A DNA stretch of 64,000 bases from Eutreptiella sp. 'Long Island Sound 2002' (taxonomy: Eukaryota; Euglenozoa; Euglenophyceae; Eutreptiales; Eutreptiaceae), in contig OZ038402.1 of NCBI GenBank assembly GCA_964036045.1, positions 1,705,380 to 1,769,379 on the forward strand. Reading direction: 5' to 3'. Shown here piece by piece: positions 4,986-63,013 of the stretch. The translations under genes were made by a program, and so were the position numbers. The notes under the pieces were generated by a model. The model saw nothing but the letters and a program-made list of their open reading frames with translations, had not been told where the DNA came from and did no database searches. The stretch's first letter is position 1, and each line of letters opens with the position of its first letter.

Positions 4986-5047
4986 ACCATAGGTGGTCAC
5001 ACGTAGAGCCTGCTCCGTGACACTTTGGAACGACCCGGTCTGTGAAT

Positions 5048-37947: not shown

Positions 37948-39728
37948 CGATGTCCTGTCCCTCTTGCAGGCGTGGTGGGCGGAGTCCATCAAGTGGGCTG
38001 TGGATCGCCCGGCGTGGAAGGAGAGGGCAGCGGCCGCGGACCTGGCGCTGGCGGAGGAGGCACTGCACCTCCTGGCGGGGGGCGAAATCCCGCTCGATGG
38101 GGGCTCCTCGACCCGCCTGAACGACCAGTCGCGCGTCACTGTGGAGCTCGCGGCGCGTGGGCTGGGGGACGCGGGCCGCGTACAAGTCCCGCCGCACGTC
38201 TGGAAGGACTGGGCTGACCCCGAGTTTGGCAGGGCGGGGGGGCGTGTCCATCCCCTCCCCCCCTCCCGCTGCCCGCGGGTGGCAGCCCTCCTCTCCACCC
38301 TCGCGTCCCAGGGCCTGGTCAGCGTGGTGGGGGGGGATGCGAATGCGGAGGTTTTCGTCAAGTGGAAATCAGAGCGCAAATGCGCCCTGATTGTGAACAT
38401 GAAGATGTTCAACCGGGGATGCAAGTACAAGGCCCGCCCCTTCAAGCTGCCGTCGCTTGAGGGCCTGGCCATCCTTCTCAGGGACCTGGGGGGAAGGGTG
38501 GGTGGGGCAGGGGGGGGGGGGCTGTGGGGCACCAAGCTGGACATAGCTAACTGCTATTGGAGTGTGGAGCTCCCCCCCCCCCCTGGCGAACACCATCCGG
38601 GTGGCGGCCCAGGGGCACACATATGCTTTTCTGCGGGTGCCCTTTGGCTGGCACCAGGCGCCTGGGCTGGTCCAGGCCCTTATTTCCGACCTGCTGCGGG
38701 ACCTGGGGAAGGGGGGGGTGGTGGTGGTACAGTACCTGGATGACGTCCTTTTTGTCGGTCATGATCCGGGGGAGGTGGCCACTGTCACCGACAGTGCGGC
38801 ACGCCTCCTACGACAGGCGGGCTTCCTCATCAGTGACAAGTCCGTCTTCACGCCGCAGCGCTCCTTGCGGTGGATGGGCAAGGATGTGGACCTTGCAGGG
38901 TGCAGGGTGGCGCCGGCGGCATCGGCGGTGGCGGCGGTGGTGGCGGCATGGGTGAAGCTGGCCCTCAGGCCATACACCTATGTCGCCCTGAGGCGTCTAC
39001 TAGGGAAGATAGGGTGGTTGGGTCGCCCAGGGAACCTGGGGGGGTGCTTTCTGGCGGGTGCCCGGTCATGGCTGCGCTGGGGCCCGCGCTGGGCCTGGCG
39101 CACACCGGCGGCAGTGGTGCGCGGTCTCTGCGAAGCCATAGCCCAGTGCTACCGGGGCTGGGAGCCGGACACTACCGGAGGGGGGCCGGCAGTGCGCGTG
39201 TTTGTGGACGCGGCCAGGTGTGCCCTTACCACGGGGACTGACCCCTCCTACTGCGTCGGCTCTTGGGGACCGGGGGGGGCGGATCTGTCGCTGTGCCCGG
39301 CGTGGGTGACCACACAGCAGGCGGCTGAGCTGTGGGGGACGCTGGTGGCGCTGGACGATGCGCAGGCGCGACGAGCGCGGCGCCTGGTGCTCGTGGGGGA
39401 CAACATGGGGGCGTTGGCCCAGCTCCTTTGGGGGAGGGCGGGGGCAGGCAAGGTCCAGCAGCAGCGCATCCTGCGGAGGATAGCCCACCGCCTCCGCTGG
39501 ACGGGGCTGCAGCTGACCCTCTGCTGGGTACAGTCCGCACTAAATCCAGCGGACTCCATCAGCCGAGCATGGGACGGGAGGGGGGGCAGGGCAGCAGTGA
39601 TCGAGGCGGCGGCGAAAGAGCGCCTGTGGGTGAGCTCGCCGCAATGGGCAGCGTGGGGGGCTATTGCAGACCGGGACAAGGCGGTACGACCGTGCACGGT
39701 CCCCCTTCCTGTCTGGTTGGGAGGATGA
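37844..39728 (+). pseudogene. YR2 reverse transcriptase - RNase H (one frameshift)
   Basis: ATG 37844 lies inside the YR frame. The first residues hold a Cys pair (CARCGLDW) and are helical. RT motifs follow: KSERKCALIVNMKMFN, KLDIANCYWSVEL, FLRVPFGWHQAPG and the active site YLDD at 38733-38744. The frame changes at a run of eleven C near 38571-38583, just after CYWSVEL. The RNase H shows FVDAARC, QAAELWG, GDNMGAL and LNPADSISR. A G run at about 38512-38522 encodes Gly residues at the same place as the frameshifting G run of YR1. The C-run shift may be an assembly error. Confidence 0.85.
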
Positions 39729-41501: not shown

Positions 41502-42712
41502 CATATCCTGGGTCTACGGCACTCACTAATACAAAAGGGCTTGCAACGGCGCGAGGAAGCACCACAAAACACGGCCTGCTCACCGCCACGGGCCAAACGG
41601 ACGTGTACCACTAGGAGGATAACAGGGCGAATGAGAGTATCACCAGACTCACCCATGCAAGTCCTTGGAGCAAAGAAAACTTGTCATCGGTGAGAAGACA
41701 AGGGCCAAACATGAGTTGTGGCGACCCCAAGTCGCTCTGCAGGTATACTCAAGGTAGGAATATAAGTTGCTACTTCTTTGTCATCCTTGATCCCTATCCT
41801 TGACACGGGAAGAAGCTATGGTATGTTGTGAGAGTGTACTTAGATCCCGAGATTGACTCGTATTGCTGCAGAACTATTGCACAACTTACCAGCTTCGTCC
41901 AAAAAAAAAAACAACACGGACACCGGGACGCCTGTGTGGACCACATGGCCCATCTGACATCTCCCTAGGCAAAGGGACAGTGAAGCAGACACAGGGCGAA
42001 CAACACATGCCAGACCAACAAACCACCATCCCAGCATGCCATTGAAAAGGTTAGCGCACGACTATGCCGCCTCATTACACCAGGGTCCACTTCGCTACAC
42101 CAATGGCAAACAGTAGACCATCGAAACGAGAGGGACGGTCCTGACCCCGTGGTGCGCGCGGTGCAGTGCGCGGTGCGACGTCAGCCCGGCGCACACAATA
42201 TATGCTCACACTAAAAGTTGCTGAAAAGTGGCCAGTGTGCACTGTATGCAATGGTTAGGTGATGCTATTGGTGTGTATGGGTAAAACACGCTTGGGGTGC
42301 ATTATCTGGGGGGAAGTGGTGATGATGCATGCACAAAAGTTTCCCATTTCAATGTGTTTTCTCCGCATCCCTGCCTACCTTCCGAAAGGGTGCACATTGC
42401 ACTAAAGCGTTGCATCCTCTGACGGTGCGTGCGGTGCAGTGCGCGGTGCGCTTCAGCACCCTCAGGGCCCTAAAGTTCGACCGAGCGTGACATCAAGGCC
42501 GAATGGCAGTATGCCCCAGAGAACCACTCGTCAACCTGCACACCACATCCAACCGTCAGTTTTCAGTTTTTGCTCACTTTTTGGTATTCAACATGTCACC
42601 GCATCGTTCATCAAAAATTGGGCGGCAACCGAAGCACTGCTTGCTGCCATAACCCGTGTTCAATGTACAGCCTGAAACAGCGATATGAAACCTTACTCCT
42701 TACACCAGATCG
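41502..42712. other. intergenic region upstream of histidine kinase B
   Basis: No gene is seen. A short repeat, gcggtgcagtgcgcggtgcg, occurs near 42158-42177 and 42431-42450. A run of A at 41902-41911 suggests a poly(A) remnant but no element is attached. Confidence 0.5.
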
Positions 42713-42841
42713 GTGACCCCAACCAGTCCATTTTTCTTTCTGTCATACGGACTGCCTTGCACAGGTCTTTTTATTTTCACTGCCTCGTCGACTGCAAACA
42801 GCAATGAGAACTCCACAGAAGTGACCTGGGGTGCTACTAAG

Positions 42842-44944
42842 ATGCTCTCATTTTGGAGGGACTTCCGGTTTTCATGTCCGTCGAAGGAGAGGGGTTTCCA
42901 GATGAGCCGGGCATCTCCGGCCAAGACAGTGTTTGTCTTCGTCTGCCTGGCAGCCTTGGAGCTCTTGCAGGTTAGAGCTGTTTTTAGCTCACCCGGGGCC
43001 CCATGGGTCACCCTTCTGTCCGCCATTCCCCTGTGTATTCTCCTCGTGGCGTCGCTGGTCCTGATCCGATGGTGGAGTGCAGTCTCGCCCTATGCCTCAC
43101 ATGTGATTTGCACGGCTATCATTGTGGGGTCTGTGGGCAAAATGGCGTATCTGGTCACAGAATCGAATGCTGTGCAGACCAACATTCGCCAGTTTGTTGA
43201 GGGCATAAGCTCGGAACCGCCGGACGCAATCATAGCAGCGGTTGACCGTCACACACATTTCGCCACGGCTGCCATACTCTGCCCGGTCATTTGTGTTCTG
43301 GTGCAAAATTTGATGCTGAATGCTGGCTTTCTGTATACTCGATGGATCGGGCTGACCAATTGCACGCTCCCCCTGGGGGCCGTTGTGGCAACCGTCGTCT
43401 CTCCAAGGAGCTTGCTTGCTCTTCCTGCCTTCATTATCCCTTTGGTCGCCTTGTGGATGAACGTGTTGCACAGCGTTGCACAGCGAAAGCAGTTCATGGC
43501 AGAGAGCAGACAAAGAGAGACAGAAGCGTTGGAAGCCCAACTGAGGCACGCACAAGCAGATGTTGAATCCAACAGCATCCTCGACCACCACCTGAAGAAC
43601 ATCATGGCGGAGGTAAAAGGTTCCATTGAAACGTTCCTGGAGGATCGAACAGCAGACGAGCACCTGCACCAGGCCTTAGAGCGGCTGCAGAGCGGAATTA
43701 AATGGTGCAAGAATAGGCTTGTTCTGATTGGAGAAGTTTCCAGTGAGTACGTCCCGCAGCTGACCTCCGTGAACCTTGCAACACTTGTCCAAGGTCTGAT
43801 CTCCGGCCGGCAAATGCCGCATGTCACATTTCCTGACCAGTCCGTATGGATCAACGAGAACCTGTGTGCATTGATGTTGGAAAATGTGATTGTCAACGCG
43901 CTTCGACATGGGCATCCTGAAGGGCCTGCCGTATCCCTGCACATTGATCTGCAGCCCGAGCCCAGGACTGCCGAACATACAATTACGTTCCGGGTGACGA
44001 ATCGCGCGGATCCAGCCAAGCCTCGGATTACACCCGAGTTTTGCCAGCAGTCCTGTGAAGGCAACCATCAGCAGCTGAGGCCTGGTGGGCTGTCTGATGG
44101 CCTTGGGCTGGGTCACATATTCATGATTGCTGAACGGCTTGGTGCCGTAGCCTCACTAACTCAGGCAGAGGGTGAAGATACAGTGGTTTTTGAGGCCTCT
44201 ATGCCTGTCCAAGTCTGCGATGACCGTCGCATTAGCGTCTCAAGCACTGCTGTGCCAGAGCAGCCCGTGCCCTCCGCAGTACAGCAACGTCCCTGGAACC
44301 TTCGCTTCTTCTGTGCCGAAGACAGCGCACTTAGTCGGAGGCTATTGAACAGCAACCTCAAGCGTTATTTTGAGGGAAGCTGTGTAGAAATGTTCGGGGC
44401 AACCAAAGACGATTTGGAGGGTTTTGCGGAGGCCGCCCTGGCACTGGCTGACGTCGTCATCGTGGATCAAAACATGGAGTACGGGGCAACAACGGTGTAC
44501 GGCACGAACCTCTTGAAGCAGCTGACCGCCCTCGGCTTCAGGGGGCTTTGCTGCGTCAGATCCGCCAGCACCTCGGCCGATGATGCTGCGTTGTACACAT
44601 CGTCGGGCGCACACCTCACATTAGACAAGGGCCTCAGCTTCAGGGATATGGCATTGCGCCTCCAAGACGCATACATCAAGCATGTGGCACTTCCCGCTGG
44701 TCATGCTGCGTCTGCTGGCAGCAGTCACCCCAGCAGCGCTGGCTCCTCTGGCGTGCTGAACGACGTGGGGTCACCGAGGCAGGTGTGGGGACAGGGATGC
44801 AGCCGTGGCAGCGCTCACGCAGGGCCAGGGAGGCACGTGGGGGGGCAAAGTGGCAGGCCCTGGGACAGCAAGGTGGTTGTGCCGACCGGCAGCTGCGATT
44901 GGAAAGCGGTCGGTCCGGCGCTCCATCGTCCGAGCTGCGGTTGA
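42842..44944 (+). CDS. hybrid histidine kinase B (membrane sensor + receiver), intact frame
   Basis: The frame is open from 42713; the first ATG is 42842, with a second at 42902. About six hydrophobic segments (42930-43470) precede a coiled linker. The H-box is SILDHHLKNIMAEVK (aligned His 43586-43588). The N-box is MLENVIVNALRHG (about 43875-43913) and the G-box DGLGLGHIFMIAERLGA (about 44098). The receiver has CAEDSALSRR, Asp in VVIVDQNMEYG (44465-44467) and a Lys in LTLDKGLS. This is a full sensor kinase fused to its own receiver, presumably in a membrane. No known sensor domain is recognisable, so the signal is unknown. The C-terminal 70 residues are Ser/Gly-rich. It is a paralogue of 26619-28545, with no frameshift. 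Confidence 0.88.
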   Translation: MLSFWRDFRFSCPSKERGFQMSRASPAKTVFVFVCLAALELLQVRAVFSSPGAPWVTLLSAIPLCILLVASLVLIRWWSAVSPYASHVICTAIIVGSVGKMAYLVTESNAVQTNIRQFVEGISSEPPDAIIAAVDRHTHFATAAILCPVICVLVQNLMLNAGFLYTRWIGLTNCTLPLGAVVATVVSPRSLLALPAFIIPLVALWMNVLHSVAQRKQFMAESRQRETEALEAQLRHAQADVESNSILDHHLKNIMAEVKGSIETFLEDRTADEHLHQALERLQSGIKWCKNRLVLIGEVSSEYVPQLTSVNLATLVQGLISGRQMPHVTFPDQSVWINENLCALMLENVIVNALRHGHPEGPAVSLHIDLQPEPRTAEHTITFRVTNRADPAKPRITPEFCQQSCEGNHQQLRPGGLSDGLGLGHIFMIAERLGAVASLTQAEGEDTVVFEASMPVQVCDDRRISVSSTAVPEQPVPSAVQQRPWNLRFFCAEDSALSRRLLNSNLKRYFEGSCVEMFGATKDDLEGFAEAALALADVVIVDQNMEYGATTVYGTNLLKQLTALGFRGLCCVRSASTSADDAALYTSSGAHLTLDKGLSFRDMALRLQDAYIKHVALPAGHAASAGSSHPSSAGSSGVLNDVGSPRQVWGQGCSRGSAHAGPGRHVGGQSGRPWDSKVVVPTGSCDWKAVGPALHRPSCG

Positions 44945-45651: not shown

Positions 45652-48146
45652 TCTGTATGCATCCTTTACCCCCCCCCCCCTGGCGCAAGCACTCCCTTGT
45701 CTAAGCACATGAGCCCGTGTTACCGTCGTTTTGGTGGAGTTTTCTGACGACGGTTTTTATGGTCAGAAACGGAACATTGCGCCTTTGTGCTTCGCTTGTA
45801 GAGGGAAAGGGGGGCTGCATCATGCTTCTGGTAGTTCCTCCTGCTCATCCCAACATTCTGCTTCCAATTGCAACCCAATGCTGTCTGTTTTGATGTGATT
45901 TTCAGCCACGGCTCAGTTTGCTACACCTGGCATAGTTGTTAGGTACATCCGGTCCACCGGTGAACATGTCTCCGCAACAATCATTGGTCCTTCTACTCGT
46001 GGGGATGATTTCTTTCATGTGAATTGCATGCGGAATGGGCATGAGCTTGAGCATCATGCTCCTATGGATCGTGTCTTTTTCCCAATTCGCAGCCCTTCCC
46101 CAGAACCTTCAGAGCCCTCTCCAAAACGAGGGCGATCAGCAACGGTGACACATGTTTTTTTTGGCACCGCTCGTCGCGCGCAAGCACGGGCTTGTCTAAG
46201 TACGGGAGCCCGTGTTACCGTCGTTTTGCTGACTTTCAGGGTGCTTGCGCAAGGGGGGTGGGGGGTAGATGTATGCATCCTGTACCCCCCCCCCCCCTTG
46301 CGCAAGCACTCCCTTGTCTAAGCACATGAGCCCGTGTTACCGACGTTTTGGTGGTCGTTTTCTGACCACGGTTTTTATGGTCAGAAACGCAACATTGCGC
46401 GTCGGCTTCGCTTGTAGGGGGGCTGCATCATGCTTCTGGTAGTTCCTCCTGCTCATATTCTGCTTCCAATTGCAACCCAATGCTGTCTGTTTTGATGTGA
46501 TTTTCAGCCACGGCTCAGTTTGCTACACCTGGCATGGTTGTTAGGTACATCCGGTCCACCGGTGAACATGTCTCCGCAACAATCATTGGTCCTTCTACTC
46601 GTGGGGATGATTTCTTTCATGGGGATGGGCATGAGCTTGAGCTCCTATGGACCGTGTCCTTTTCCCAATCCGCAGCCCTTCCCCAGAACCTTCAGAGCCC
46701 TCTCCAAAACGAGGGCGATCAGCAACGGTGACACATGTTTTTTTTGGCACCGCTCGTCGCGCGCAAGCACGGGCTTGTCTAAGCACGGGAGCCCATGTTA
46801 CCGTCGTTTTGCTGACTTTCAGGGTGCTTGCGCAAGGGGGGTGGGGGGTAGATGTATGCATCCTGTACCCCCCCCCCCCCCTTGCGCAAGCACTGCCTTG
46901 TCTAAGCACATGAGCCCGTGTTACCAACGTTTTGGTGGAGTTTTCTGACGACGGTTTTTATGGTCAGAAACGGACATTGCGCCTTTGTGCTTCGCTTGTA
47001 GAGGGAAAGGGGGGCTGCATCATGCTTCTGGTAGTTCCTCCTGCTCATCCCAACATTCTGCTTCCAATTGCAACCCAATGCTGTCTGTTTTGATGTGATT
47101 TTCAGCCACGGCTCAGTTTGCTACACCTGGCATGGTTGTTAGGTACATCCGGTCCACCGGTGAACATGTCTCCGCAACAATCATTGGTCCTTCTACTCGT
47201 GGGGATGATTTCTTTCATGGGGATGGGCATGAGCTTGAGCTCCTATGGACCGTGTCCTTTTCCCAATCCGCAGCCCTTCCCCAGAACCTTCAGAGCCCTC
47301 TCCAAAACGAGGGCGATCAGCAACGGTGACACATGTTTTTTTTGGCACCGCTCGTCGCGCGCAAGCACGGGCTTGTCTAAGCACGGGAGCCCATGTTACC
47401 GTCGTTTTGCTGACTTTCAGGGTGCTTGCGCAAGGGGGGTGGGGGGTAGATGTATGCATCCTGTACCCCCCCCCCCCCCTTGCGCAAGCACTGCCTTGTC
47501 TAAGCACATGAGCCCGTGTTACCAACGTTTTGGTGGAGTTTTCTGACGACGGTTTTTATGGTCAGAAACGGACATTGCGCCTTTGTGCTTCGCTTGTAGA
47601 GGGAAAGGGGGGCTGCATCATGCTTCTGGTAGTTCCTCCTGCTCATCCCAACATTCTGCTTCCAATTGCAACCCAATGCTGTCTGTTTTGATGTGATTTT
47701 CAGCCACGGCTCAGTTTGCTACACCTGGCATGGTTGTTAGGTACATCCGGTCCACCGGTGAACATGTCTCCGCAACAATCATTGGTCCTTCTACTCGTGG
47801 GGATGATTTCTTTCATGGGGATGGGCATGAGCTTGATCTCCTATGGACCGTGTCTTTTTCCCAATTCGCAGCCCTTCCCCAGAACCTTCAGAGCCCTCTC
47901 CAAAACGAGGGCGATCAGCAACGGTGACACATGTTTTTTTTGGCACCGCTCGTCGCGCGCAAGCACGGGCTTGTCTAAGCACGGGAGCCCGTGTTACCGT
48001 CGTTTTGCTGACTTTCAGGGTGCTTGCGCAAGGGGGGTGGGGGGTAGATGTATGCATCCTGTACCCCCCCCCCCCCCTTGCGCAAGCACTCCCTTGTCTA
48101 AGCATATGAGCCCGTGTTACCGACGTTTTGGTGGAGTTTTCTGACC
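45652..48146 (+). repeat. tandem array of about 600-bp units with G/C hairpins
   Basis: Four units, with period exactly 598 bp for the last three, plus a partial one. Each contains gtgcttgcgcaagggggg, then a loop with tgtatgcatcc, then ccccccttgcgcaagcac: a long perfect hairpin (for example 46824-46893). A 55-bp segment (gcaagcac-ggcttgtctaagcac) repeats in direct orientation on both sides of it. The apparent 142-residue frames, one per unit, read across the hairpin and C run and look non-coding. Confidence 0.92.
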
Positions 48147-48189
48147 ACAGTCCCAAAGAGTTTCGAACTGTTGCAGTGGAATAATGACT

Positions 48190-51198: not shown

Positions 51199-51240
51199 AT
51201 ACTTGCTGATTGAGGGCATAGGTCTGTCGGTGGGGACCTA

Positions 51241-52613
51241 TTGCTGAACTTTCCACTGTTCTATGGCCAAGCTACAGGGGGCTACGGGCTGTTGATATCC
51301 CTGCTTGCGAACCAGCGCGAGGCCATGTTCAAATCGGATATGTGTGATAGGCTAAAGCGGCAGTTACAGCCCCGGGAGGTGCGAGTGCAAGGTCAGGCAA
51401 ATCGCCGGCGGACCATCCACAACTTGGTACGGCAGTTGCGAGAGCGACAACACGTGGCACGACTTCGGGACTCGCAGGGGGGGGTACACACCGGGGTGCG
51501 CTCGATCGCACAGGCTATGCGGGACTATTAGGCGGGGGTCATGGCGGGGAATGCAGTAACCGAAGAGGAGTGCTGGCGGTATGTAAGGTCCCTTCCCATT
51601 CCCCCGAAAATCCTGCAGGCGTTGCCTTTGCTTATGAAGCCACTGTCGCTGGACGTGGTATTGGCAGCGCTCGAGCGGCCAAAAGGGGGACCGGCACCGG
51701 GTAAGGATGGTATACCAGCGGAGCTGTACCAGGCGTTTCCATCTGTCTTTGCCCCGCGGTTGTTGTCAGCCATGCAGGATTTCCTCAGGGTGGGGGGGGT
51801 GCCAGCGGAGTGGTCGGTCAGCCTGATGCGGTGCCTGCCTAAGTTTTGTGGGGCGGAACAACCCAAAGATATGAGACCCATTGCGCTCCAGCAGGTATGC
51901 CTAAAGTGGGTGACCACTACGGTGATGTTACAGCTCTCGGACGTGTGGCCACAGGTGACCCCCCCCCTGTCAGAAAGGCTTCGTGCCGGGGCGGCAGATG
52001 CTGGATCATATAATCTACGCCAGGGCAGAGTGGGAGCGGCTGCCAGACCAGATCATGGTGTCGGTGGATTTTCAGAAAGCCTATGACTCGGTAACTTTCA
52101 CCTTGTTGCGGGTCACCCTGATCCACTTGGGGTTGCCCTTGGCGTACGTTGGTTTGTTGATGTCAGTGTCGGCGGGGCCCGTTTTATTTTGTGTGGGGAG
52201 GGGCTTTGTGGCCGATGTGGAGCTGAGCCCACGCTCAGGCATCCGACAAGGGGACCCAGTACCCCCCTTGCTTCTTGACCTGATAACGGTCCTGCTAATT
52301 TTTGATTTCAAACGGTTGCATGTTACTGTGGTGGTGCCGCTATACGCAGATGATATTTTGTTGGCGCTGCCGGGGCGGGGGCCGCAACAGGTGGCCGACC
52401 TGAGGGCGGTTTTGTATGTCCTGCAGGTGTTCGGGTATTTCTCTGGCGTGATCGGGCGACGAAGACGTTTTTCTGTCCAGCTCGGAAGACATGTCATTTA
52501 GTACAGATGTCAGTGACACGCGGTTGCGGGGGGCGTGGGACAGTGACAGTGATGGGTTCAGTACAGACGTGAGTGAGAGCAGGAAGAGGCGGCGGGGGGG
52601 GATCGAGTCCTGA
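51241..52613 (+). pseudogene. internally deleted LINE: partial RT fused to the element tail
   Basis: A basic linker (RLKRQLQPREVRVQ), TAG at 51529-51531, then RT motifs PLSLDVVLAAL, GPAPGKDGIPAELY, KDMRPIALQQ, VDFQKAYDSV, GIRQGDPVPP and the active site YADD at 52343-52354. The frame shifts at a C run near 51958-51967. After GYFSGV the thumb, zinc finger and RNase H are missing, and the sequence jumps to the Ser/Asp tail MSFSTDVSDTR...FSTDVSESRKRRR ending at TGA 52611-52613. That tail is shared with the LINE at 549-4128, so both belong to one family. It might be a non-autonomous derivative. Confidence 0.85.
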
Positions 52614-53029
52614 GACGGAGGGGCGCCAGTGGCGCCTATGGAGCACGGGGCAACAACGGGGGAGGAGCATACCAGAAACACGCGTGGCTCCCAAGCCACG
52701 GTCGGTGGCGAAGTCAACGGGCACGCCACCGGGCATTTGAGCCTTGAAGGTCTGCACTAAGTGCACACCGCAGCAGCAACCGCTGGGGCCGGCGGGGGGG
52801 GGGGAGACTTGGTGGTTTCCGCGGCCGGTACACAGCGTGTTGGACAGTGACAAACAATAGGGGAGGAGCATACCTGACGCCGCGCAGGTCCCGACCGACG
52901 GGCATCGGACTGGACAGGCACCTGCCACAATGACCAGAATACACGCATTTCCTGGATCAGATCCCTTCGTGCTATTGCCACAGTATCGTCAGGAACCCCC
53001 CTACCCCTCGGGACACCCCCCCCCCCCTC
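52614..53029 (+). other. LINE 3' flank and start of the 2A element
   Basis: A segment ggggaggagcatacc...cgacgggc is partly repeated (52668-52720 and 52860-52905). An ATG at 52931 opens a frame (MTRIHAFPGSDPFVLLPQYR) that could join ORF1 of the next element if the C run at 53017-53027 were one base different. Confidence 0.45.
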
Positions 53030-54148
53030 ATGGGAGAGGAACTGCCTTGCGACCCACCATCTAGGCAGGCACCCCCCAACAATCGACGACACCCCCCCGC
53101 CCTCATTGGGTTGTTGCGGGACCGTACGGTCGACGGTGATATCGAAAAGAACCCGGGGCCTGAAGATGCGCAGACCACAGGGAACGACATCCCCCCCCAG
53201 CACAGAGAGATGGTCTCCCGGCTGGCTAGCGAGATCCAAACGGCCTCCAACCCCCACTACCCCGCTAAACTATACAAATACGCGACACAGGCACTCACGG
53301 AGGCACTGCAAAAAAAGCGGCGCGCATCCACCCCTCCCTTAGGACATAACACACCCGCTCCATGTGCAGAACCGTCTACCACACATGGCACAATGGAGGT
53401 GCCATCACCAGAGGCACCCCCGGTGCAAGGGGTACATGACCCAGGCACACCACGACCCGCCCCCTTGGAAACTTCCGAGTTGACTGTGAAAACACAAAAA
53501 CACCACTCACCGGTAGGATTAAACATGACCACAGCCATCAATGTAGTTTGCCCCCGATGCAACATGGCCGACTTTGTGTACTTCCGCTGCACCACATGCA
53601 AGTATTTTGCCATACACCAACCGGATACCCCACACTTGGTACCACGGCGACTCTACAACGTGATGTCCCCAGACCCCTTATACCCACGACAAGAATCCTG
53701 GCAAGAGGCCATACCGGCCACCACCTCGCAAACCTACCACACGCCAGTACCACACGAGACGCGCCCCCGACCGACCGTGGAGGACACCCCGGACGGATGG
53801 TTACGTGACGTCACAAGTGACGGGGATGTCGAACCTAACCCGGGTCCCAGCCCATCAACACCCTCAGCGAAACGCACGCGATACAACCAAGACACGCCAC
53901 ATATGTACCAAACACCTAGGATGCTACGCAAACGCACCGCGGACAACACTCCCCCCGGACAAAAACGGAGGCGCGCAGACCACGTACCCATGGCGAACCA
54001 GGAGCATCAATCGTCAACACTGGTATATAACCACCACAAACGAAAGGCGGACGGGGAACCTACCCACCAACCACTACCCAAAAGGCACCAGAGCACGACC
54101 CACTGGGACGAGCAACACCCCCCGGGAACCAAGGAAACCTACGCATGA
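53030..54148 (+). CDS. 2A-LINE ORF1: two 2A-like motifs and a zinc ribbon
   Basis: ATG 53030 to TGA 54146-54148, 372 residues. Residues 35-44 read DGDIEKNPGP and residues 264-273 DGDVEPNPGP, both matching the D(V/I)ExNPGP consensus at which ribosomes can skip a peptide bond before the last Pro. Between them lies a Cys pair module CPRCNMADFVYFRCTTC (53549-53599), typical of a zinc ribbon. If both motifs work, the ORF gives three polypeptides: a 43-residue leader, a zinc-ribbon protein of about 229 residues and a basic C-terminal piece (KRRRADHVP, HHKRKADGE). The next ORF's ATG overlaps the stop. Confidence 0.85.
   Translation: MGEELPCDPPSRQAPPNNRRHPPALIGLLRDRTVDGDIEKNPGPEDAQTTGNDIPPQHREMVSRLASEIQTASNPHYPAKLYKYATQALTEALQKKRRASTPPLGHNTPAPCAEPSTTHGTMEVPSPEAPPVQGVHDPGTPRPAPLETSELTVKTQKHHSPVGLNMTTAINVVCPRCNMADFVYFRCTTCKYFAIHQPDTPHLVPRRLYNVMSPDPLYPRQESWQEAIPATTSQTYHTPVPHETRPRPTVEDTPDGWLRDVTSDGDVEPNPGPSPSTPSAKRTRYNQDTPHMYQTPRMLRKRTADNTPPGQKRRRADHVPMANQEHQSSTLVYNHHKRKADGEPTHQPLPKRHQSTTHWDEQHPPGTKETYA
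53132..53161 (+). other. 2A-like motif 1 (DGDIEKNPGP)
   Basis: Codons 53132-53161, preceded by LIGLLRDRTV; a full match to the 2A consensus including the terminal NPGP. Confidence 0.85.
53819..53848 (+). other. 2A-like motif 2 (DGDVEPNPGP)
   Basis: Preceded by WLRDVTS; a full match. Shares the WxxDxTx lead with motifs 3 and 4. Confidence 0.85.
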
Positions 54149-54417
54149 AACGGACATATGAAGACACCACTGAACAAGTCATGGGTGACTCACCACGCAG
54201 GAAGATCCGCCGAACACAACGCCTGCGCAATCGCCCCTACCCGAGACCCACGAGCTGGGTCCACGACCCGACTCAAGACGGAGACACAGAGCCCAACCCC
54301 GGACCAACCACACCCGCAGTGGAGCGCACAGCCCAGACCACACCGCCGGGGGACATGGGGACTGAGGTGCACAACGCTCTGCCACCGCTCTTGCTGGCGG
54401 CACCACCACCCCACTAG
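54145..54417 (+). CDS. 2A-LINE ORF2: short basic protein with a 2A-like motif
   Basis: The ATG overlaps the ORF1 stop (ATGA at 54145-54148), suggesting termination-reinitiation. 90 residues, beginning MKRTYEDTTEQV and Arg-rich (RRKIRRTQRLRNRPYPRP). Residues 45-54 are DGDTEPNPGP, where Thr replaces the usual Val/Ile. TAG 54415-54417 ends it; the same frame then continues straight into the RING finger of ORF3, so readthrough (or a CAG-to-TAG mutation) would make one larger protein. Confidence 0.7.
   Translation: MKRTYEDTTEQVMGDSPRRKIRRTQRLRNRPYPRPTSWVHDPTQDGDTEPNPGPTTPAVERTAQTTPPGDMGTEVHNALPPLLLAAPPPH
54277..54306 (+). other. 2A-like motif 3 (DGDTEPNPGP)
   Basis: Preceded by SWVHDPTQ. Thr in place of Val/Ile may weaken skipping; the NPGP core is intact. 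Confidence 0.75.
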
Positions 54418-57400
54418 CCCAATGACGACGTGCACAAACACTCATGGAACACGGATGACGGTGGACGGGCCCTAGAGGAGTGCCCCGTATGCTTGGACAG
54501 CCCCGCGGATACACACCTGAGCTGCGACCCCAGGCACAGACTGTGCCAGGACTGCGCCAACGACCCACGACTGCTAAGATGCCCACTTTGCCGCGGCACT
54601 CTGCAACCGAAGATACCCCCCCCACCCCCGGATGACCCAACATATGCGTATTTCCACATACAGATCTACAACAACAGACTCCTCACATACACGGATCACT
54701 GCGCAACTCCCAACCCGCCAGTGCATTTGGCATACAACGTGTGGAGGAGGCTTCCTAGCACAACAGGCCAACTGTGGGAGGTGCACCTCAGGACTGACCT
54801 CCCATACTACCACATCGCAAGACACAGACTGCATGCCCTCACGGGCACGAGGGAGGGCTTCCAAATGGCCGTATCCATACGAGACTGGCTCTTCCTGGTC
54901 CAACCCTTGCAACACGACCTGCTCCTGGAGTATGACACCTCCGACTGTGTGCCACCCGACCACCCATCGGACGTGCGCCATGACAGGAACACATCCGTAA
55001 CCCCAGACGTGGCCTACCCACAACACACCCAATGGGTGCCGGACGCCACGCAGGATGGTGATGTGGAACCAAACCCAGGCCCGGATACCAACGCCCCGCC
55101 CCACGGCATGGTGCGCACCCTGGCAGAAAATTACGAAAGACACACGTCCGGACTGCACACTGGTGTGCAAGACCAAGGGGAAGAAATGGAAACCCCGGAC
55201 ATCCTGGAGTCAACCTCAAAACCCCCACCAGAGGATACCACTGAGCGGGAACCCCCCCAGAATGGTGAACCTAGCACACCACCTGACCAACACACCGAAG
55301 GGCTAAGTTACGCCCCCCCTCCACCCCAAGAGGATACACAGGCATACACATTCCACGAAGACGGCAACAACCCACTGGACAAGCTACCCATACACACACC
55401 TACGGAATACCAGCTCATAGAAGAACTCGTAAAGCTCAACACAGGCGCGTCACAACAACCAATGACTGCAGCAGAGCAAGACACATTGAAAGCATCAGTT
55501 GTGTACGACGCACCAACCAGACTAAAAACATACTTAACAAAGCACCCAAACCGTGCAGTGACCACAGAGCACATCAGGAGGCAAACACAGGAAGGGGTAT
55601 GGTATGACAGGAACACCTACCAACTCCCTCTGTTTGCGCAACACAAACTGCGCGACGTCATGACGGTGAGGCATGAGGCAGACTCTGACGGTATACACAC
55701 GGTATCCGAGATGGCCAAAGCACACCAATACACAATACACACGGAAGCCGACCATCAAGGGAACCCAGACATCCGGAACAAGACATACTTACTACTGCCA
55801 CAGGTTACCGGGACCCGCCGCAACCATGAACGACGCATGCAGCGCGCCGCCATACAAACGGAATGGGGCGGAAGCGAAGACGAACGGGTTGACCAAGTCC
55901 TACGGGCACTCGGCGACCCGGGGGCCAAGGAACTGATCCTGGCTTACGAGGCGGACCGCCAAGACATTACAGCACTACAAACCTACCGCATGGACTGCCT
56001 CCACCGCGCCCCCCTGCGCAAACTGGCCCGCTATGTAAGGGGCGTATACCAATTCGACAAATTCCCCGTGCGCAAGTGGTCCCCGGAACACGAAACTATG
56101 GTCGACCACCTACAACCCAAACCCATCATGGTCCTCCACCGGGACAACACCATAAAGATGGGACACGAGCCCACGCACAAAACATACGCACTCACGAAGG
56201 GCACACCCATACAAGTGGGACTGAAAGACCGCACAGACACACTACAACCAGAACCGGCCAAGATTACAATCGTAGTGGAGTGCCCACCAGAAACGGGCAT
56301 TAGGACGCGAGACGCATTTATGAAATGGATCAACGGCCACCAGTCTGACGTCGCATCCACCATAGCAAGCAAAGACCCCCACAACACTTTTCGGTGGAAG
56401 TGCGCATCCGAACACACCGCGGGGCAAAGTGGGTCGCACGCCTGGAGACTACACCTGCCCATGCAATTGCTGCCTCGCTTGACACAAGCACTGCAAACCA
56501 TAAAACAAGAGGAGGAAAACGCCGGCAACCCTGGATCCTACTGGCTCACCGAAACGGACTATGAGAGCCTGTATATACTGAGACAACAATACACGGAACA
56601 CAAAGAAGACAGAATAACGTCCGTACAGGAGATACTGGACGACCTGGACAGGGAACAGCTCGAGCTAGGAAGGAGCATTGCATCCTTCCTCAAGGGGTTC
56701 CGACCAGTGGACTCATACCGTCTACTGGTACAATTCCACCCAGACGCAGACCGACGCTTGATTGCCCAACTACTAAAGGGCATGAAAAGCTACGAACTGG
56801 TCCACGTGATGACCAACGTCATCCTCAACCGCAACAACTGGACACAGTCCACGAGCCGCTCTAGGGACATCAAGCGACCGCCAAAATCGACTAGGCACGA
56901 CACCACGACGGTGTTCGTAGGGTGGACACAGGGCGCAGGAGACGCCACGGCGAAAGTCGTGGCATCATTCTTTGGATGCTGGACCAGCTGGAAGCCGGAA
57001 CCCAACATGTGGAGCGACGCGGGCTGCACCTACGCCTCCCTCCAATACCAGCACGCCACGGCAGTGGCCCTCAGTGCCGGACAATACATCGGAGTGGCAC
57101 CCGGTGAATACGTCCACATCACGCTGGGAGATGACAACACGGACACACAGGCGGCAGAGCGCATCGACCAGATGCTCGCAAACAAAATGCCGCAGGAAAC
57201 GGGCGACGACGCGGCCTTCACGAGACGAATGAAGGCAGGGAAACAATTGGGCTCAGACATGATGACTGAACGCGTCATCAAGGAAATCAACAGGGAAAAG
57301 CAGCTGTTCGCAGAGCCGGAACCCATCAACGTGGCAGACTGGCACGCGGCCATCCTGAACGAACTCGGCCATGCCACTAACGACGACACCCCATCAGACA

Positions 57401-57705
57401 CCCACCCAAATTTGGCCACCATGGACACGGATGAAACCCCCGTCCAGCAACCAGACAACCCGGCAAAATTAACCACAACACACGCACGGCAGTCACACCC
57501 AGCGCAGAAAACCAAGGCCCACAACAAGACACCACAGAAAACGCCCACAAAAACAACGCCACCACCAAAAAAGAAGAAGGCAGCACCTGCATCGCCGCAA
57601 TCCACACAACAAGCAGACAGTACGGCTGCCTTCACCGTGGACAGCAGACACAAGGGGAAAGGAAAGGGGCCGCCAAAAAACCCGTCGGGCAAAGGGAAAA
57701 AGTGA
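54418..57705 (+). CDS. 2A-LINE ORF3: RING finger, 2A-like motif, long gag/ORF1-like region
   Basis: Open from the TAG at 54415 to TGA 57703-57705, about 1095 codons; the first near-cognate start is GTG 54430 and no ATG precedes the RING. The C3HC4 RING finger has perfect spacing (Cys codons from 54481 to 54591: C-x2-C-x10-C-x3-H-x2-C-x2-C-x8-C-x2-C), the fold of many E3 ubiquitin ligases. A 2A-like motif follows at 55054-55083, so RING and remainder could be separated. The remaining 870 residues show no named domain but hold helical, charged segments and a Lys/Pro tail (PPPKKKKAAPA, KGKGKGPPKN) suited to RNA binding. I infer an ORF1/gag role for that part. There are no frameshifts or internal stops. 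Confidence 0.82.
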   Translation, partial: PNDDVHKHSWNTDDGGRALEECPVCLDSPADTHLSCDPRHRLCQDCANDPRLLRCPLCRGTLQPKIPPPPPDDPTYAYFHIQIYNNRLLTYTDHCATPNPPVHLAYNVWRRLPSTTGQLWEVHLRTDLPYYHIARHRLHALTGTREGFQMAVSIRDWLFLVQPLQHDLLLEYDTSDCVPPDHPSDVRHDRNTSVTPDVAYPQHTQWVPDATQDGDVEPNPGPDTNAPPHGMVRTLAENYERHTSGLHTGVQDQGEEMETPDILESTSKPPPEDTTEREPPQNGEPSTPPDQHTEGLSYAPPPPQEDTQAYTFHEDGNNPLDKLPIHTPTEYQLIEELVKLNTGASQQPMTAAEQDTLKASVVYDAPTRLKTYLTKHPNRAVTTEHIRRQTQEGVWYDRNTYQLPLFAQHKLRDVMTVRHEADSDGIHTVSEMAKAHQYTIHTEADHQGNPDIRNKTYLLLPQVTGTRRNHERRMQRAAIQTEWGGSEDERVDQVLRALGDPGAKELILAYEADRQDITALQTYRMDCLHRAPLRKLARYVRGVYQFDKFPVRKWSPEHETMVDHLQPKPIMVLHRDNTIKMGHEPTHKTYALTKGTPIQVGLKDRTDTLQPEPAKITIVVECPPETGIRTRDAFMKWINGHQSDVASTIASKDPHNTFRWKCASEHTAGQSGSHAWRLHLPMQLLPRLTQALQTIKQEEENAGNPGSYWLTETDYESLYILRQQYTEHKEDRITSVQEILDDLDREQLELGRSIASFLKGFRPVDSYRLLVQFHPDADRRLIAQLLKGMKSYELVHVMTNVILNRNNWTQSTSRSRDIKRPPKSTRHDTTTVFVGWTQGAGDATAKVVASFFGCWTSWKPEPNMWSDAGCTYASLQYQHATAVALSAGQYIGVAPGEYVHITLGDDNTDTQAAERIDQMLANKMPQETGDDAAFTRRMKAGKQLGSDMMTERVIKEINREKQLFAEPEPINVADWHAAILNELGHATNDDTPSDTHPNLATMDTDETPVQQPDNPAKLTTTHARQSHPAQKTKAHNKTPQKTPTKTTPPPKKKKAAPASPQSTQQADSTAAFTVDSRHKGKGKGPPKNPSGKGKK
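55054..55083 (+). other. 2A-like motif 4 (DGDVEPNPGP)
   Basis: Preceded by QWVPDATQ; full consensus. Lies about 155 residues after the RING finger. Confidence 0.85.
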
Positions 57706-57719
57706 GGTGCCTGTTCCTT

Positions 57720-60700
57720 ATGCCCTGCATCGCCATAATGGCCCTCCTCCTACTCCTGGCCCCCACGCATATAGAGGGGCCGGTATATTTACTCCCCGTG
57801 AACCGGAGAGTCCGCAGACGATATACCCCGCCGTTACGGCACCGGCATGGTTACGCACGGGGCCCCAACCCCCATAGTTACCGTATATGGCAGCCAGGCC
57901 CACTCCTCCTCTATATCGTCTGTTTTTTCCACACCCCGACCGCCCCAATCACGGCAGCGCCATGCCGCTACCATGCACCTGTCTCGATCACCACGGTAAC
58001 CAGCCCATATAACACGCGGTATAACACCAACTGGGTCCTCCAATGCGGAGATGTGCACCCCAACCCCGGGCACCGTAGGATATATCAGCTCCGGCGGGGA
58101 TGCCGGGATGTGCGGGGACCCCCCATACCGTTGCTTGACATTGAGGAGTATGCTCAACACCTGGTGGTCAACACCAATCGACGGTATGACAGTCTAGACG
58201 ACGCAACCACCGCGAAGGACCACGACATGAAACTGGCCTCCTGGAACATACAAGGAGCGCAGGGATCCGTCCGCCTACAACGATGGGCCAATACCCTCCA
58301 CCTAATCAGCCAGTGCCGTATCGACCTATGCGGCATCCAGGAGTATCACCCAGGTTTCCCTAAACCAGAGGCAGCCACAACATCACTCAACAACGACTAC
58401 AAGTGCTACGCTGCGCCTGGGACCGAACCACGGATAGCTTTCATTGTCCGCAACGCTGTGGTCCCCCACATACTCGAAACGTTATACTCGCCCAACGGTC
58501 TGGCAGGGGCCATCAGGATACAGCTCCCAAACAGCCCCCGCCGCACCATTGCGTGTGTGTACTCCAAATTCAACCAACAGGACAAACAAGAGGTAGACCT
58601 ATTTCTACAGTCCCTCAGACCATACGACATCATTATGGGGGACTACAACGATGACATTTGGTCACCCAACCCGACACGCCCGTCGCAGGAAGACCTGAAT
58701 AGCGGAGTGTTCCTGGACCCTTTGCACGCTAGCAGCCAACCCCCGGACCCCCGGCCATACTAAACCCGCATCCCTAGGCATGGACGCCCACGTCGACTAG
58801 ACGCCATCTTGATTAGGCAACAAATACTGAACATACCCTGGACCTACTATGACACCATACAAATGCCCATATCGGATCATGCTTTGGTCCTGCTTGGGGT
58901 CCGATGGAGGATAGGGGTCCCCGACCCACCACGCGGAAAACCACAGCCCACAGTCGCGAAGTGGTATACAAAATAATTTCAACGGTTTACTAACACCGTA
59001 TCCACACTACCCATAACAATCAACGACCCACCCTTACACACGGCATGACGGATCCTGTCAGCTATAGCGCACGCGGCGCGGCCACGACGACCCACGCGCG
59101 CAAAGACAGCAACCACCGCAAGCTGGTCGGAAACCACGGACCCCAAAACACGGTTACGAGAGTACGGGGAAATACAAGAACAACACATACGGAGACAAAT
59201 CGGCAAACTGCGCCGAGCAGCAGTGCACAAATCGGGCTATTTTTATAAAATGGTCAAGAGATGGCGCACTGGACTCATAGCCCAGGACACACCGCAGCCC
59301 CCAATAGGAGGAACACAGTACGTACTCAACCACTTTGCGGGCGACCCAACATACGACGAAGACGCGTGCCGGCAACTCATACGGAAACATGTACGGCACC
59401 GCACGTGGAACACAGCAACCCCCACATACGAGGAGTACTTGCGGTGCCTTCGGGCCCCAAAGAACAAATCTGCCGGACCTGACGGTGTCCCCCCACACCT
59501 GCTCCGGCACCTACCGGACCACGTGCAGCGGCAACTATACCAGGCAATCGTTGCAGTCTGGAACGGACAGCACATCCCAGTGGCATGGCTGCAGTCCAGG
59601 GTAGTGCTCATCTATAAAAAGAAGGATCCCCAGGACCCACGAAACTACCGGCCAATCTACGTATCCACGGCCATATATAGTATACTCACACGTCTCCTCC
59701 TGATGCGTATATTGGGAGCCTTGACCCCGGGACTATTGGACATACAACACGGCGCCACACAGGGCCGAAACACCACAACGTTAGCCACGAAACTATTAAA
59801 CGACCTGCACGTTGAGGACGGGTACGTGGCCCTACTTGATGTGGCCAAAGCTTTTCCATCAGTCCCCCGACCCATGCTGACTGGGATCGTCAAGGAGGCA
59901 GGGGCACCAGAAAACATCATACGGATGTTGGGGGAAATATACCAGCATACACCGGCCGTACTGACCCTACACGGAAAGGATCTACCCATACGACCCACCA
60001 GGGGTATGAAGCAGGGGTGCCCCCTCTCCCCAACACTATTTCTCCTATACTACGACATACTATTACGTGAAACCATGGAACGATGCCCGGGAGCCCGACT
60101 GTACGTGTTCGTTGACGACATAGCTGTGCGTGCGCCCACGAAGGAGGCATTGCTGCACACCCTGGATACCCTCCACGACGTGGCCCACACAATGGGGTTA
60201 CGCTTCAACAAGGACAAAACTGAAGTGTGCCACTGGGCTAAGGACTACGACCTAACGCCCATCACGTGGCGGCATCAGCTCATCCCCGTGCGGCCACCTA
60301 TAATGACTTACCTGGGGCATGTGCTTGCCCACCCCACACAAGAAGACACAGCATGGGACATGGTCACTACACAGCTACACCACGACGTAGCGGCGTACAG
60401 GACCCTGCCGCTCAACGCCTACGAAAAGGTGGCTATCATCAACGCCGTCCTTATCCCCCGTTGGACGTACAGGGGACTGTTCCTCGGAAATAGGACACGA
60501 ATGGCGCAATGGGACGACATACTGCTGCAGTTCATCAGGGATACACCCGGGGTAGAACAACAAATGAACAAACACCGGCTGACTACCAACCTCAGCCACG
60601 GGGGACTTGGCCTACGCCAGCTGTGGTGGTCCTACATCACCCGGTGGGTCACAATTGGCCAACAGGAACTGCAGCGCACCGGCCCAACACAACAACTCAC

Positions 60701-62858
60701 CGCAACCCAATATAAATACATAGACGCCGTCCGAGCCCTAGGGGGCACGGTGGGTCAGCGTATATCCCAACCCCGACAACACCGACCCTTGTCCGCGGGA
60801 CTCTACGACTCGGAGAGCTCAGAGGAGGACCAGGAGTCGCATGCAGGGAAGACACGGCCAGCTACCAACCGCTTAGACTACAGCTGGATGAACCCTCCAG
60901 AGGAGCCAACCCCTGAGGAAACCCATGAGGTATGTCAGGCACTCCCCCGCCAGCAAAAACTCCACGGAATCACCATACACTACACAGGAGAACCCACCAC
61001 CACCCGGTGGTACACAGACGGGTCGAAACGACACGGACGAGCGGGAGGGGGCATCTACAACGGAACATACCGTGCGGCATTCCGGGTGCACGGGCCACAA
61101 CAGGTTTATCGGGCCGAAACGATCGCTTGCGCCTTAGCTTCAGAGCTGGCCTAGCCAGGAGACGACATTATACTAGACAACCAGAGTGTGGTAAAGGCCA
61201 CACCTATAAAACGCAAAGGAGTGGTCAAGGACCAGAACTACCGCGACATAGGGTACCTCAACTCCACCACGAAACGACTGGCGATCCGATGGACACCAGG
61301 GCACCGCAATCTAGAGCAAGCCACCACGTATAAAGACTACCAGGACATACAGGGGAACAACCACTCTGACGTCCTCGCCAATATGGGCGACAACTTGCCC
61401 ATGGATTCCCAACAACCACAACCCCATGATATTGTCATCACAGGACAGATCATGCCCACGCCTGCCAAGGCATGGATCATGCAAGTGCGTAGACAAAAAC
61501 AAACACCAGACGTACACTGGGCGAGTTGGCTCCCCATGAAGCACTACAGACGGAACGCGTGGACACCCTGGCTGTGGGGGCAAGTGCGTTGGTGGGGAAT
61601 GGGCGCCCCCTGGGAACGGACACCCCGCCTCTGCTCCCAGTGTGGCCAACAACACGGAGCATCGGTGCAGTCAAAACTGGCTTACTGTCCTGCCTGGAGC
61701 GACTTCTGGGACCTGTGGCGCAAGAGCTGGACTGATTGGGCCCCATACACGCACCAATGGCTGCAAGCGGCCGACAACCAAGAACTATGGCTCTGTGTCA
61801 GGCTGCTCATACCACTATCCCTCGTCGACGCCATACCCACTGCGGAACGACACAAACTGCGAACGGAGGTGGGCCTGTTCCAGTTTCGCATGATACAGTC
61901 CGTCCAAACACTAAGACGAAAGTACGCCGACCCAACACCACAACAACCACCGTCGCCCCTGTGGCTCACCAAATACATGGCACAGGCACTTCCGCCGCGA
62001 GAAACGCCCCGAAACCTACGGAACCAAGTCGGGGCGCCCACGTGGTGCGGCGCGAAACGCAAACGTAAGGCCGAGGTCGCAACGGCTGACCCAATCGATC
62101 CCAGCCAATGGTTACAAGATGCACGCAACGCGGGCGATAGTGAGGCAGTGGCATGGTTCGTCGCACGAGCCACTAACACAGGGGCAGACGACCACATAAA
62201 GAAACGACAGCGCCTCAACGTTGACACACAGCGGTGGGAACAGTACAAGACGACCACAGACAGGCTGGCAAATGAACACGCTCAGCAAGCACGGGACATA
62301 TACCACAAAGCACACATGGAGGCGATGGCGAGACAACACCTGCACACCCTACACATGGGCTACACCAACGCACTGACGGCAAAAGGAGACTATCACAGGC
62401 TTGTCATAAAACTAGTCGACCAACAGAGACAAACACAACGACTGCACGACACACATGCACACCTATACCAAATACGTAGGCAATGGTACGAACAAGCGAA
62501 GGACGACACAAGGATGTGGTACGCTGACGCAAAACTGCTACTGATGGTCAACGACCGATACTGGAGGCTGAGCGCAGGCACTGACAAGCTACTTGACCTG
62601 CACCATCAACAAGCGACCTACATGTGGCAGGAGCAGACACACCTGACTGCCATGGCACAGTACTACCAAGACGCCTGCAAACACAAGACAACACAATACT
62701 GGCAAACAACCCGACCAGCCCGACAGACAGTATGCCTGATACGGAAGCGGCCGTGGGAGCACTGGGACCCCACCTTGTGGGAAGTCCCGTTGCAACCGCT
62801 ACCGAAACGCCACAAAACGCCTTGGGACCCAAATGAGTGGGAAGTACCACTGACATGA
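57720..62858 (+). pseudogene. 2A-LINE ORF4: APE endonuclease - RT - RNase H - tail (four in-frame stops)
   Basis: One frame throughout, with no indel, interrupted by TAA 58761-58763, TAA 58973-58975, TGA 59046-59048 and TAG 61152-61154. The N-terminus after ATG 57720 is hydrophobic (MPCIAIMALLLLLAP), like a signal or membrane segment. A degenerate 2A (GDVHPNPGH) at 58044-58073 precedes the APE endonuclease (KLASWNIQGAQG, GIQEYHPG, MGDYNDDI, later RRLDAIL and MPISDHALVL). The RT has NKSAGPDGVPPH, YRPIYVST, LLDVAKAFPSV, GMKQGCPLSPT and an active site FVDD at 60108-60119 rather than YADD. The RNase H has RWYTDGSK, YRAETIACAL, ILDNQSV and HSDVLANMGD. A Cys/His cluster (CSQCGQQHG) and a long helical tail follow. 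All four stops are compatible with single C-to-T changes. Confidence 0.88.
58044..58073 (+). other. 2A-like motif 5, degenerate (GDVHPNPGH)
   Basis: Aligned with the others (NWVLQ lead), but Glu is replaced by His and the final Pro by His; the last Pro is needed for skipping in characterised 2As, so this one is probably inactive. Confidence 0.7.
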
Positions 62859-63013
62859 CTACACCAACCTCAATGGGAAACCATGGGGGCACAGTCACGA
62901 GCTGCAGCCCGTATGCATACCCTGGCTTCGCCGAAATCTGTATCTTACTTCGAACTTGGTCCACTGTGCCCCCTGGCACTTATGAACTGGCCTTTTTGAT
63001 CAAAAAAAAAAAA
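62859..63013 (+). other. 2A-LINE 3' UTR and poly(A) tract
   Basis: About 140 bp after the ORF4 stop, then 12 A at 63002-63013. This supports LINE-type target-primed retrotransposition. I found no convincing target-site duplication. Confidence 0.75.

Follow-up and report, generated by a model that had tools for sequence, protein, structure and literature searches.

A LINE copy in a Eutreptiella genome with four predicted serial StopGo/2A sites in its first open reading frame

The element and its four 2A-like motifs

The window, that is, the whole 64,000-nucleotide stretch analysed here (positions 1705380-1769379 of contig C25 in the 2.28-Gb genome of Eutreptiella sp. 'Long Island Sound 2002'), contains a copy of a non-long-terminal-repeat (non-LTR) retrotransposon, a long interspersed nuclear element (LINE). 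The region of its first open reading frame (ORF1) carries four motifs, M1 to M4, that resemble StopGo/2A ribosome-skipping sites. The element was compared with retrieved proteins (P numbers) and with genomic stretches (L numbers), and 50 genomic copies were sampled from 86 listed matches (the best 30 and 20 chosen for lower identity). The element and motifs are located as follows, in window coordinates.

52876..63013, plus strand: non-LTR retrotransposon copy; the tblastn match of P0107/P0108 starts at 52876, endonuclease and reverse transcriptase domains are present, and an A-run follows
53111..53161, plus strand: M1, LLRDRTVDG-DIEKNPGP, predicted StopGo site; core intact in 36 of the 47 genomic copies covering it
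53798..53848, plus strand: M2, WLRDVTSDG-DVEPNPGP, predicted StopGo site; core intact in 40 of 50 copies
54256..54306, plus strand: M3, WVHDPTQDG-DTEPNPGP, predicted StopGo site with T at position 13 (p13); core, with T13 allowed, intact in 41 of 50 copies
55033..55083, plus strand: M4, WVPDATQDG-DVEPNPGP, predicted StopGo site; core intact in 36 of the 47 copies covering it

The presence of both a reverse transcriptase domain (RVT_1, 1.9e-26) and an endonuclease domain of the apurinic/apyrimidinic endonuclease (APE) type (PF03372, 6.9e-7) places the element among the APE-type LINEs. Its 3' end is a 12-base A-run at 63002-63013. Judged by alignment, the copy is 5'-truncated, because the match to P0107 begins only at residue 870 of that protein. 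No convincing target-site duplication was seen, the longest word common to both end regions being 7 bases and not at the ends, and Rfam gave no match at gathering thresholds. The window likewise showed no relic of a dinoflagellate spliced leader.

The NPGP residues are encoded on the plus strand at 53150 (DIEKNPGP), 53837 (DVEPNPGP), 54295 (DTEPNPGP) and 55072 (DVEPNPGP). By chance, 2.6e-5 matches to D(V/I/T)ExNPGP would be expected in 1,627 residues of the same composition. Moreover, the looser pattern (D/G)(V/I/T)(E/H)xNPGP has four matches in the six frames of the whole window, compared with a mean of 0.0 in 200 mononucleotide shuffles of the element. M1-M4 are thus real and far above chance. 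An earlier sequence-only reading had described four NPGP motifs and one degenerate motif in a single LINE, and the coordinates, the chance estimate and the shuffles bear this out. The extended lead that it saw in motifs 2-4 was also confirmed, as W-x-x-D-x-T-x-D-G; the part D-x-T-x-DG is common to all four motifs and is preceded by W in M2-M4 and by L in M1. The core (D/G/C/N)(V/I)ExNPGP fits M1, M2 and M4. M3 fails it at p13, where T is found in 49 of the 50 genomic copies.

ORF1 is a single reading frame in relatives

The window copy is damaged. Its frame changes near 53030 and near 54120, the ORFs at 52934-54148 and 54031-54417 occupy different frames, and in-frame stops at 54415, 58761, 58974, 59046 and 61152 all lie opposite sense codons in relatives. 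One of these stops falls between M3 and M4.

54415..54417, plus strand: in-frame TAG, copy damage; Q in 7 of 7 aligned stretches of relatives

In four relatives (P0006, P0094, P0095 and P0097), M1, M2 and M3 lie in one ORF, which continues into the RING region without a change of frame, and the spacing is 229 residues from M1 to M2 and 153 from M2 to M3 in all four. The M3 core is altered in P0006 (N to D) and P0094 (G at p12), and P0095 drops out of frame within the RING. P0001 carries M2 and M4 and is open as far as the ORF1 stop, the part beyond M4 being 874 residues long. None of the retrieved proteins holds all four motifs; genomic DNA copies span M1-M4. M1 and M4, some 642 codons apart, are in frame with each other in 23 of the 46 copies in which all four sites could be placed, and 22 of these are in frame at each step. 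Six of the 23 are free of stops between M1 and M4 (L006, L011, L015, L018, L019 and L035); in L006, L011 and L018 none of the four cores is broken, and M1 is incompletely covered in L015 and L019. Upstream, ORF1 extends 963 residues beyond the M1 cut in P0107, and P0102, P0103, P0108 and P0110 likewise reach upstream of M1. The 'four linked ORFs' of the sequence-only reading therefore reflect damage to the window copy, since relatives and genomic copies carry the motifs in a single frame; the degenerate fifth motif lies in ORF2.

An ATGA stop-start near 54146, at the end of the window's first ORF, was considered and rejected: P0097, P0101, P0104, P0105 and P0106 lack an M at that point, and the allele that stays in frame lacks the stop. 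A non-autonomous subfamily lacking ORF2, which blastn matches ending near 57920 had suggested, was also rejected, as the extracted stretches ended at that point. Separately, P0001 lacks M3 and the RING in frame, and 11 listed genomic matches end at residues 439-442, after M3 and before the RING. Copies broken at this point may be dependent ones, or else the RING may be dispensable.

Conservation of the motif modules

Proportions of nonsynonymous (pN) and synonymous (pS) differences were pooled against one reference copy (L001), inside the four 17-codon modules and outside them. L029 was excluded, as were L024 and L027, which are nearly the same as L023 and L026, and the inside count omits the out-of-frame M1 of L044 and L050 and M3 of L049. 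The sequence-only reading had set beforehand, as its refuting check, whether the motifs are conserved above background while flanking sequence drifts. In the 14 divergent copies, pN/pS was 0.13 inside (pS 0.400, pN 0.053) and 0.42 outside (pS 0.343, pN 0.145), figures that are descriptive rather than a test, because the copies are not independent and are pooled against a single reference. Similar ratios were obtained for 12 intermediate copies (0.11 vs 0.41) and 20 close copies (0.12 vs 0.50). Per module, pN/pS in the divergent set was 0.30 for M1, 0.11 for M2, 0.04 for M3 and 0.10 for M4. Among 228 overlapping 17-codon control windows, pN was as low in 20 for M2, in none for M3 and in 10 for M4. 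The changes in M1 fall mostly in its lead (61/99 residues identical, vs 80/88 in the core, in 11 divergent copies).

At the protein level, relatives at 48%, 66% and 77% identity showed greater conservation in the modules than elsewhere (one-sided p 4e-5, 2.5e-4 and 0.004), as did P0105 (p 0.016); among the eight relatives tested, the excess inside modules was significant in P0106, P0104, P0097 and P0105. In sliding windows over five divergent relatives, 0 of 499 scored higher than M3 and 18 of 499 higher than M2. The modules thus look constrained in this family, and the check set by the sequence-only reading spoke for its view: conservation in relatives exceeds the background while the flanks drift. 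In a tree read by eye, core-breaking changes were located at tips or within two pairs of near-identical copies, L023/L024 and L026/L027, and subfamilies differed in the lead (LL or VV and V/A/T in M1; L or I and R or H in M2). This pattern of core loss is as expected if the family maintains the sites during its active life and they decay randomly once a copy has inserted.

Predicted expression of ORF1 and alternative explanations

We consider it likely that the window holds a damaged copy of a LINE whose ORF1 polyprotein is separated by serial StopGo/2A at M1-M4. ORF1 would be translated once from one mRNA, with M1-M4 as the predicted skipping sites; at each NPG/P the ribosome would let go of the upstream protein and then carry on. 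The predicted products are a long leader (at least 963 residues, from P0107), a zinc-ribbon protein of 229 aa, a basic protein of 153 aa, a RING protein of 259 aa and a gag-like protein of 874 aa, their names being putative as to role. ORF2, with its endonuclease, reverse transcriptase and RNase-H-like parts, would follow in another frame. The sequence-only reading had expected at least six products from the 5' part of the element; several products are indeed predicted, and the number for ORF1 becomes five, with the fifth motif probably inactive.

Several observations weigh against this model. All four cores are intact (T13 allowed) in only 15 of the 44 fully covered copies, and L035, one of the six stop-free copies, has three broken cores. 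M1 as a whole module does not stand out in conservation: an equal or lower pN was found in 96 of 228 control windows, and 308 of 499 protein windows score above it, P0106 being out of frame there. P0109, P0110, P0103 and P0100 show no significant excess inside the modules (p 0.06 to 0.48), and by raw counts two relatives are less conserved inside than outside (P0099, 29/34 vs 289/321; P0101, 17/23 vs 294/348). With respect to known StopGo sites, T13 of M3 is not among the variants reported active in the part of the source covered (PMC12846837). According to the same part, class-4 sites associate with S at p15, where P or K is found here, and the L of DLT is missing from our motifs (PMC12846837).

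The alternative that survives best is a sub-case of serial StopGo, in which only M1, M2 and M4 work, M3 is leaky or dead, and the basic segment mostly stays joined to the RING in a single protein. The viral StopGo rule, as given in the covered part of its source, has V or I at p13 (PMC12846837), and T13 of M3, being present in nearly all copies, is therefore an old feature. However, M3 is the most conserved of the modules, with no control window as low in pN, and a dead site would be expected to drift. We regard this sub-case as possible, with the balance against it. It is improbable that the motifs were kept for some other reason, for example because the ORF1 proteins use them for binding or folding, and cause no skipping. 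In favour of this explanation, ORF1 has further 17-codon windows conserved to about the same degree as M2 and M4 (the 20 and 10 of 228 given above). It does not readily account for the fourfold presence of a 17-residue StopGo-like signature within a single ORF, next to recognisable zinc-binding segments in two cases, or for the fact that the kept residues are those described as near-invariant in StopGo in the covered part of PMC12846837. A layout of four distinct ORFs joined through 2As, frameshifts or reinitiation would suit the frames of the window copy taken alone, as would a variant code reading through TAG/TAA. Both are highly improbable, as the relatives are continuous in frame and no single codon reassignment fits, because the residues that relatives have opposite the window stops vary (Q at 54415; Y/S at 58761; H/Q/P at 58974; R/W at 59046; S/K/R at 61152).

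ORF2, the degenerate motif M5 and the ORF1-ORF2 junction

Downstream of ORF1, the following features were recognised.

57702..62858, plus strand: ORF2, with a hydrophobic N terminus, M5, APE endonuclease, reverse transcriptase and RNase-H-like tail; four in-frame stops
58050..58073, plus strand: M5, DVHPNPGH, degenerate 2A before the endonuclease; GDVHPNPGH ends at 58073

P0014 aligns to 57702-60506 (94%) and contains PF03372 (4.3e-10). The nearest solved chains to P0008 include 8gh6, 'Reverse transcriptase-like protein' (4.9e-22), which we take to be from an R2 element, followed by LINE-1 ORF2 chains (2.3e-11), among others. In the RNase-H-like tail, TDGS, AET, DNQ and HSD motifs were seen by eye, and Pfam gave no match there.

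M5 has H at p14, a rare accepted StopGo variant according to the covered part of PMC12846837, and its p19 residue fails the StopGo core. The last residue is H or D in 4 of 4 proteins; the window has H, and so do all 5 of the further genomic copies that cover M5. The final P was found in 0 of 4 proteins and 0 of 5 genomic copies. M5 is probably inactive, a relic of a 2A before the endonuclease, because H or D at p19 lies outside the residues described as tolerated in the covered part of the source, namely P, M and W (PMC12846837), and differs also from G, which is reported as tolerated at lower efficiency. The fifth 2A-like motif of the sequence-only reading is thus present and degenerate, but by the known rules it is not a working site.

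ORF2 lies in the -1 frame relative to ORF1. For the junction, 13 stretches were taken, of which L054 did not align. Of the 12 aligned junctions, 11 retain TGA as the stop of ORF1 (GTGA), and L057 has CGA (GCGA). The TGA overlaps a GTG, and the first ORF2 ATG in the window is at 57720, 14 bases past the stop. An ATGA overlap of ORF1 and ORF2, suggested by the first residue of P0014, was rejected. The initial M of P0014 probably stands for a GTG start, because that ATG is missing in 12 of 12 aligned junctions. No standard slippery heptamer for a programmed -1 frameshift was seen by eye at the junction.

Origin of the shared lead and other 2A sites in the genome

Class-4 StopGo sites have WV(R/K)DLTxDG before D(V/I)ExNPGP, and altering the characteristic class-4 residues abolished activity in almost all cases, as described in the covered part of PMC12846837. 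Compared by eye, M2-M4 fit this scheme except for the L of DLT and, in M3 and M4, the R/K. M3 and M4 are identical at 14 of 17 residues, 11 of which are encoded by different codons; the cores of M2 and M4 are identical at 8 of 8 residues, and five codons differ. Among 12 comparisons of module flanks, three beat 95% of shuffles (13-25 of 500 as good), and the remaining ones had 55-500 as good. The shared lead had been read as the result of whole-module duplication. The lead is indeed shared, but it resembles a known StopGo class, the codons differ and the flanks share little. Because of the resemblance to class 4, duplication is not needed; function would explain the lead, which does not prove duplication of the module. 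Old duplication and convergence are both possible.

A strict pattern, DGD(V/I/M)ExNPGP, which does not match M3, had 366 exact matches in the genome (185 and 181 per strand), and its reversed control had 0. Among the 100 of these sites that were listed, 59 fell into 25 clusters of two or three within 3 kb, and 32 of the 34 gaps in the clusters were close to the M1-M2 or M2-M4 spacing. Eight other 2A places were inspected. Specifically, L065, L067 and L068 are relatives of the window ORF1. L065 (G000:C3:18396900-18399100) has two 2As 29 residues apart at the M4 position, with a gag-like part 43% identical to the window's; therefore, 2A sites can multiply locally. L066, L069, L071 and L072 have single strict 2A sites and match the window ORF1 solely in short stretches around the 2A, and L066 has a CxxC pair downstream of its 2A. 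L070 also has a single strict 2A and matches ORF C weakly, at 31% over 80 residues (E 3e-5), in a region that takes in the 2A and a downstream CPVC stretch. No relatives were confirmed in viral_contigs or genome_contigs.

The ORF1 segments

Between and after the motifs, four segments can be described.

53525..53620, plus strand: zinc-ribbon-like CPRC...CTTC in the M1-M2 product (229 aa); CxxC-x9-CxxC
53849..54255, plus strand: basic segment M2-M3 with several clusters rich in KR, 153 aa long in relatives; the window copy changes frame once here
54481..54591, plus strand: RING-type C3HC4 zinc finger in the M3-M4 product (259 aa); eight ligands present
55081..57705, plus strand: gag-like last ORF1 product (874 aa) with a Lys/Gly/Pro-rich tail, ending in TGA; called 'gag-like' from its position

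CxxC-x9-CxxC was counted by eye in 11 of 15 compared sequences, and a Pfam search of this segment gave nothing above the cut-off. The isolated RING piece matched PF13920 at 4.2e-5, below its cut-off, and SIAH1 in PDB at E 0.0017; the eight C3HC4 ligands are in order in the window and in 6 of 7 listed proteins, W replacing one Cys in P0006. Domain searches found no known domain in the gag-like product.

In the leader, residues about 151-200 of P0107 resemble the C-terminal half of ubiquitin and are followed by GLKGGG. When isolated, this piece matched PF00240 at 6.3e-4, below the cut-off; PDB polyubiquitin was matched at 2.2e-4 summed over repeats. The resemblance is a lead rather than an identification. 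A clan of LINEs that uses serial StopGo as its main ORF1 expression route, delivering a ubiquitin-like leader and a separate RING E3, is a speculative extension that we hold to be doubtful. Residues 1-25 of P0107 comprise an L-rich stretch and then NGDGGVEPC (one sequence), perhaps the remains of a 2A at the N terminus. The structure models built for ORF C and P0107 were uninformative (mean predicted local distance difference test scores of 28.8 and 30.5).

Relation to known systems

To our knowledge, the 2As of known LINEs are single. In the covered part of PMC4981915, LINE 2As are described as internal. L1Tc/ingi of trypanosomes and the sea-urchin elements share with our element the LINE type, the APE endonuclease and the D(V/I)ExNPGP core, and M5 here precedes the endonuclease; unlike in those elements, four sites here split ORF1 into several segments. 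Serial NPGP sites as an expression strategy are described for Paavivirinae picornaviruses and for iflaviruses with 2A1/2A2 in the covered parts of PMC11512398 and PMC8623073, but these are RNA viruses, whereas our element is a LINE that resides in a chromosome and has an endonuclease and a reverse transcriptase. StopGo classes 1 and 4 have WV(R/K)DLTx(acidic)G in the covered part of PMC12846837; M2-M4 share W-x-x-D-x-T-x-D-G at the class-4 offset, with D at p12. The differences across M1-M4 are R, V, P or A for the L of DLT, P or K at p15 and, in M3, T13. The junction recalls the stop-restart coupling of SART1, as covered in part of PMC5972666, in that the ORF1 end and ORF2 start are a few bases apart in different frames, but no ATG overlaps the ORF1 stop here (GTGA in 11/12, GCGA in 1/12).

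2A in LINEs and serial 2A in viruses are thus already known. No report of serial 2A in a LINE ORF1 was found among the entries listed for the literature covered, as judged from titles and the starts of abstracts and with the principal LINE-2A papers outside that coverage; in the same literature, serial skipping is otherwise documented for RNA viruses. If the sites work, a chromosomal retrotransposon would make at least five ORF1 proteins by ribosome skipping, its accessory domains (zinc ribbon and RING) would sit in the LINE as 2A-bounded cassettes, and the sites would provide new, naturally co-evolved 2A modules. Additionally, dozens of decaying copies of differing age form a natural mutagenesis record of selected StopGo residues, for example, T13 of M3.

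Other features of the window

Other non-LTR element remnants with RVT_1 lie at 862-4125 and 51214-52501, and an RNase H match slightly below the cut-off was found at 2704-3498. Two further element remnants, at 5021-9568 and 35956-39725, have RVT_1 matches at 8099-9568 and 38547-39725; ORFs near both resemble tyrosine-recombinase (DIRS-like) proteins by eye, with no Pfam support for a recombinase. An ORF at 42689-44941 has weak histidine-kinase ATPase and response-regulator matches, below curated cut-offs. At 45800-48150, about four head-to-tail units of about 600 bases each are 95-96% identical.

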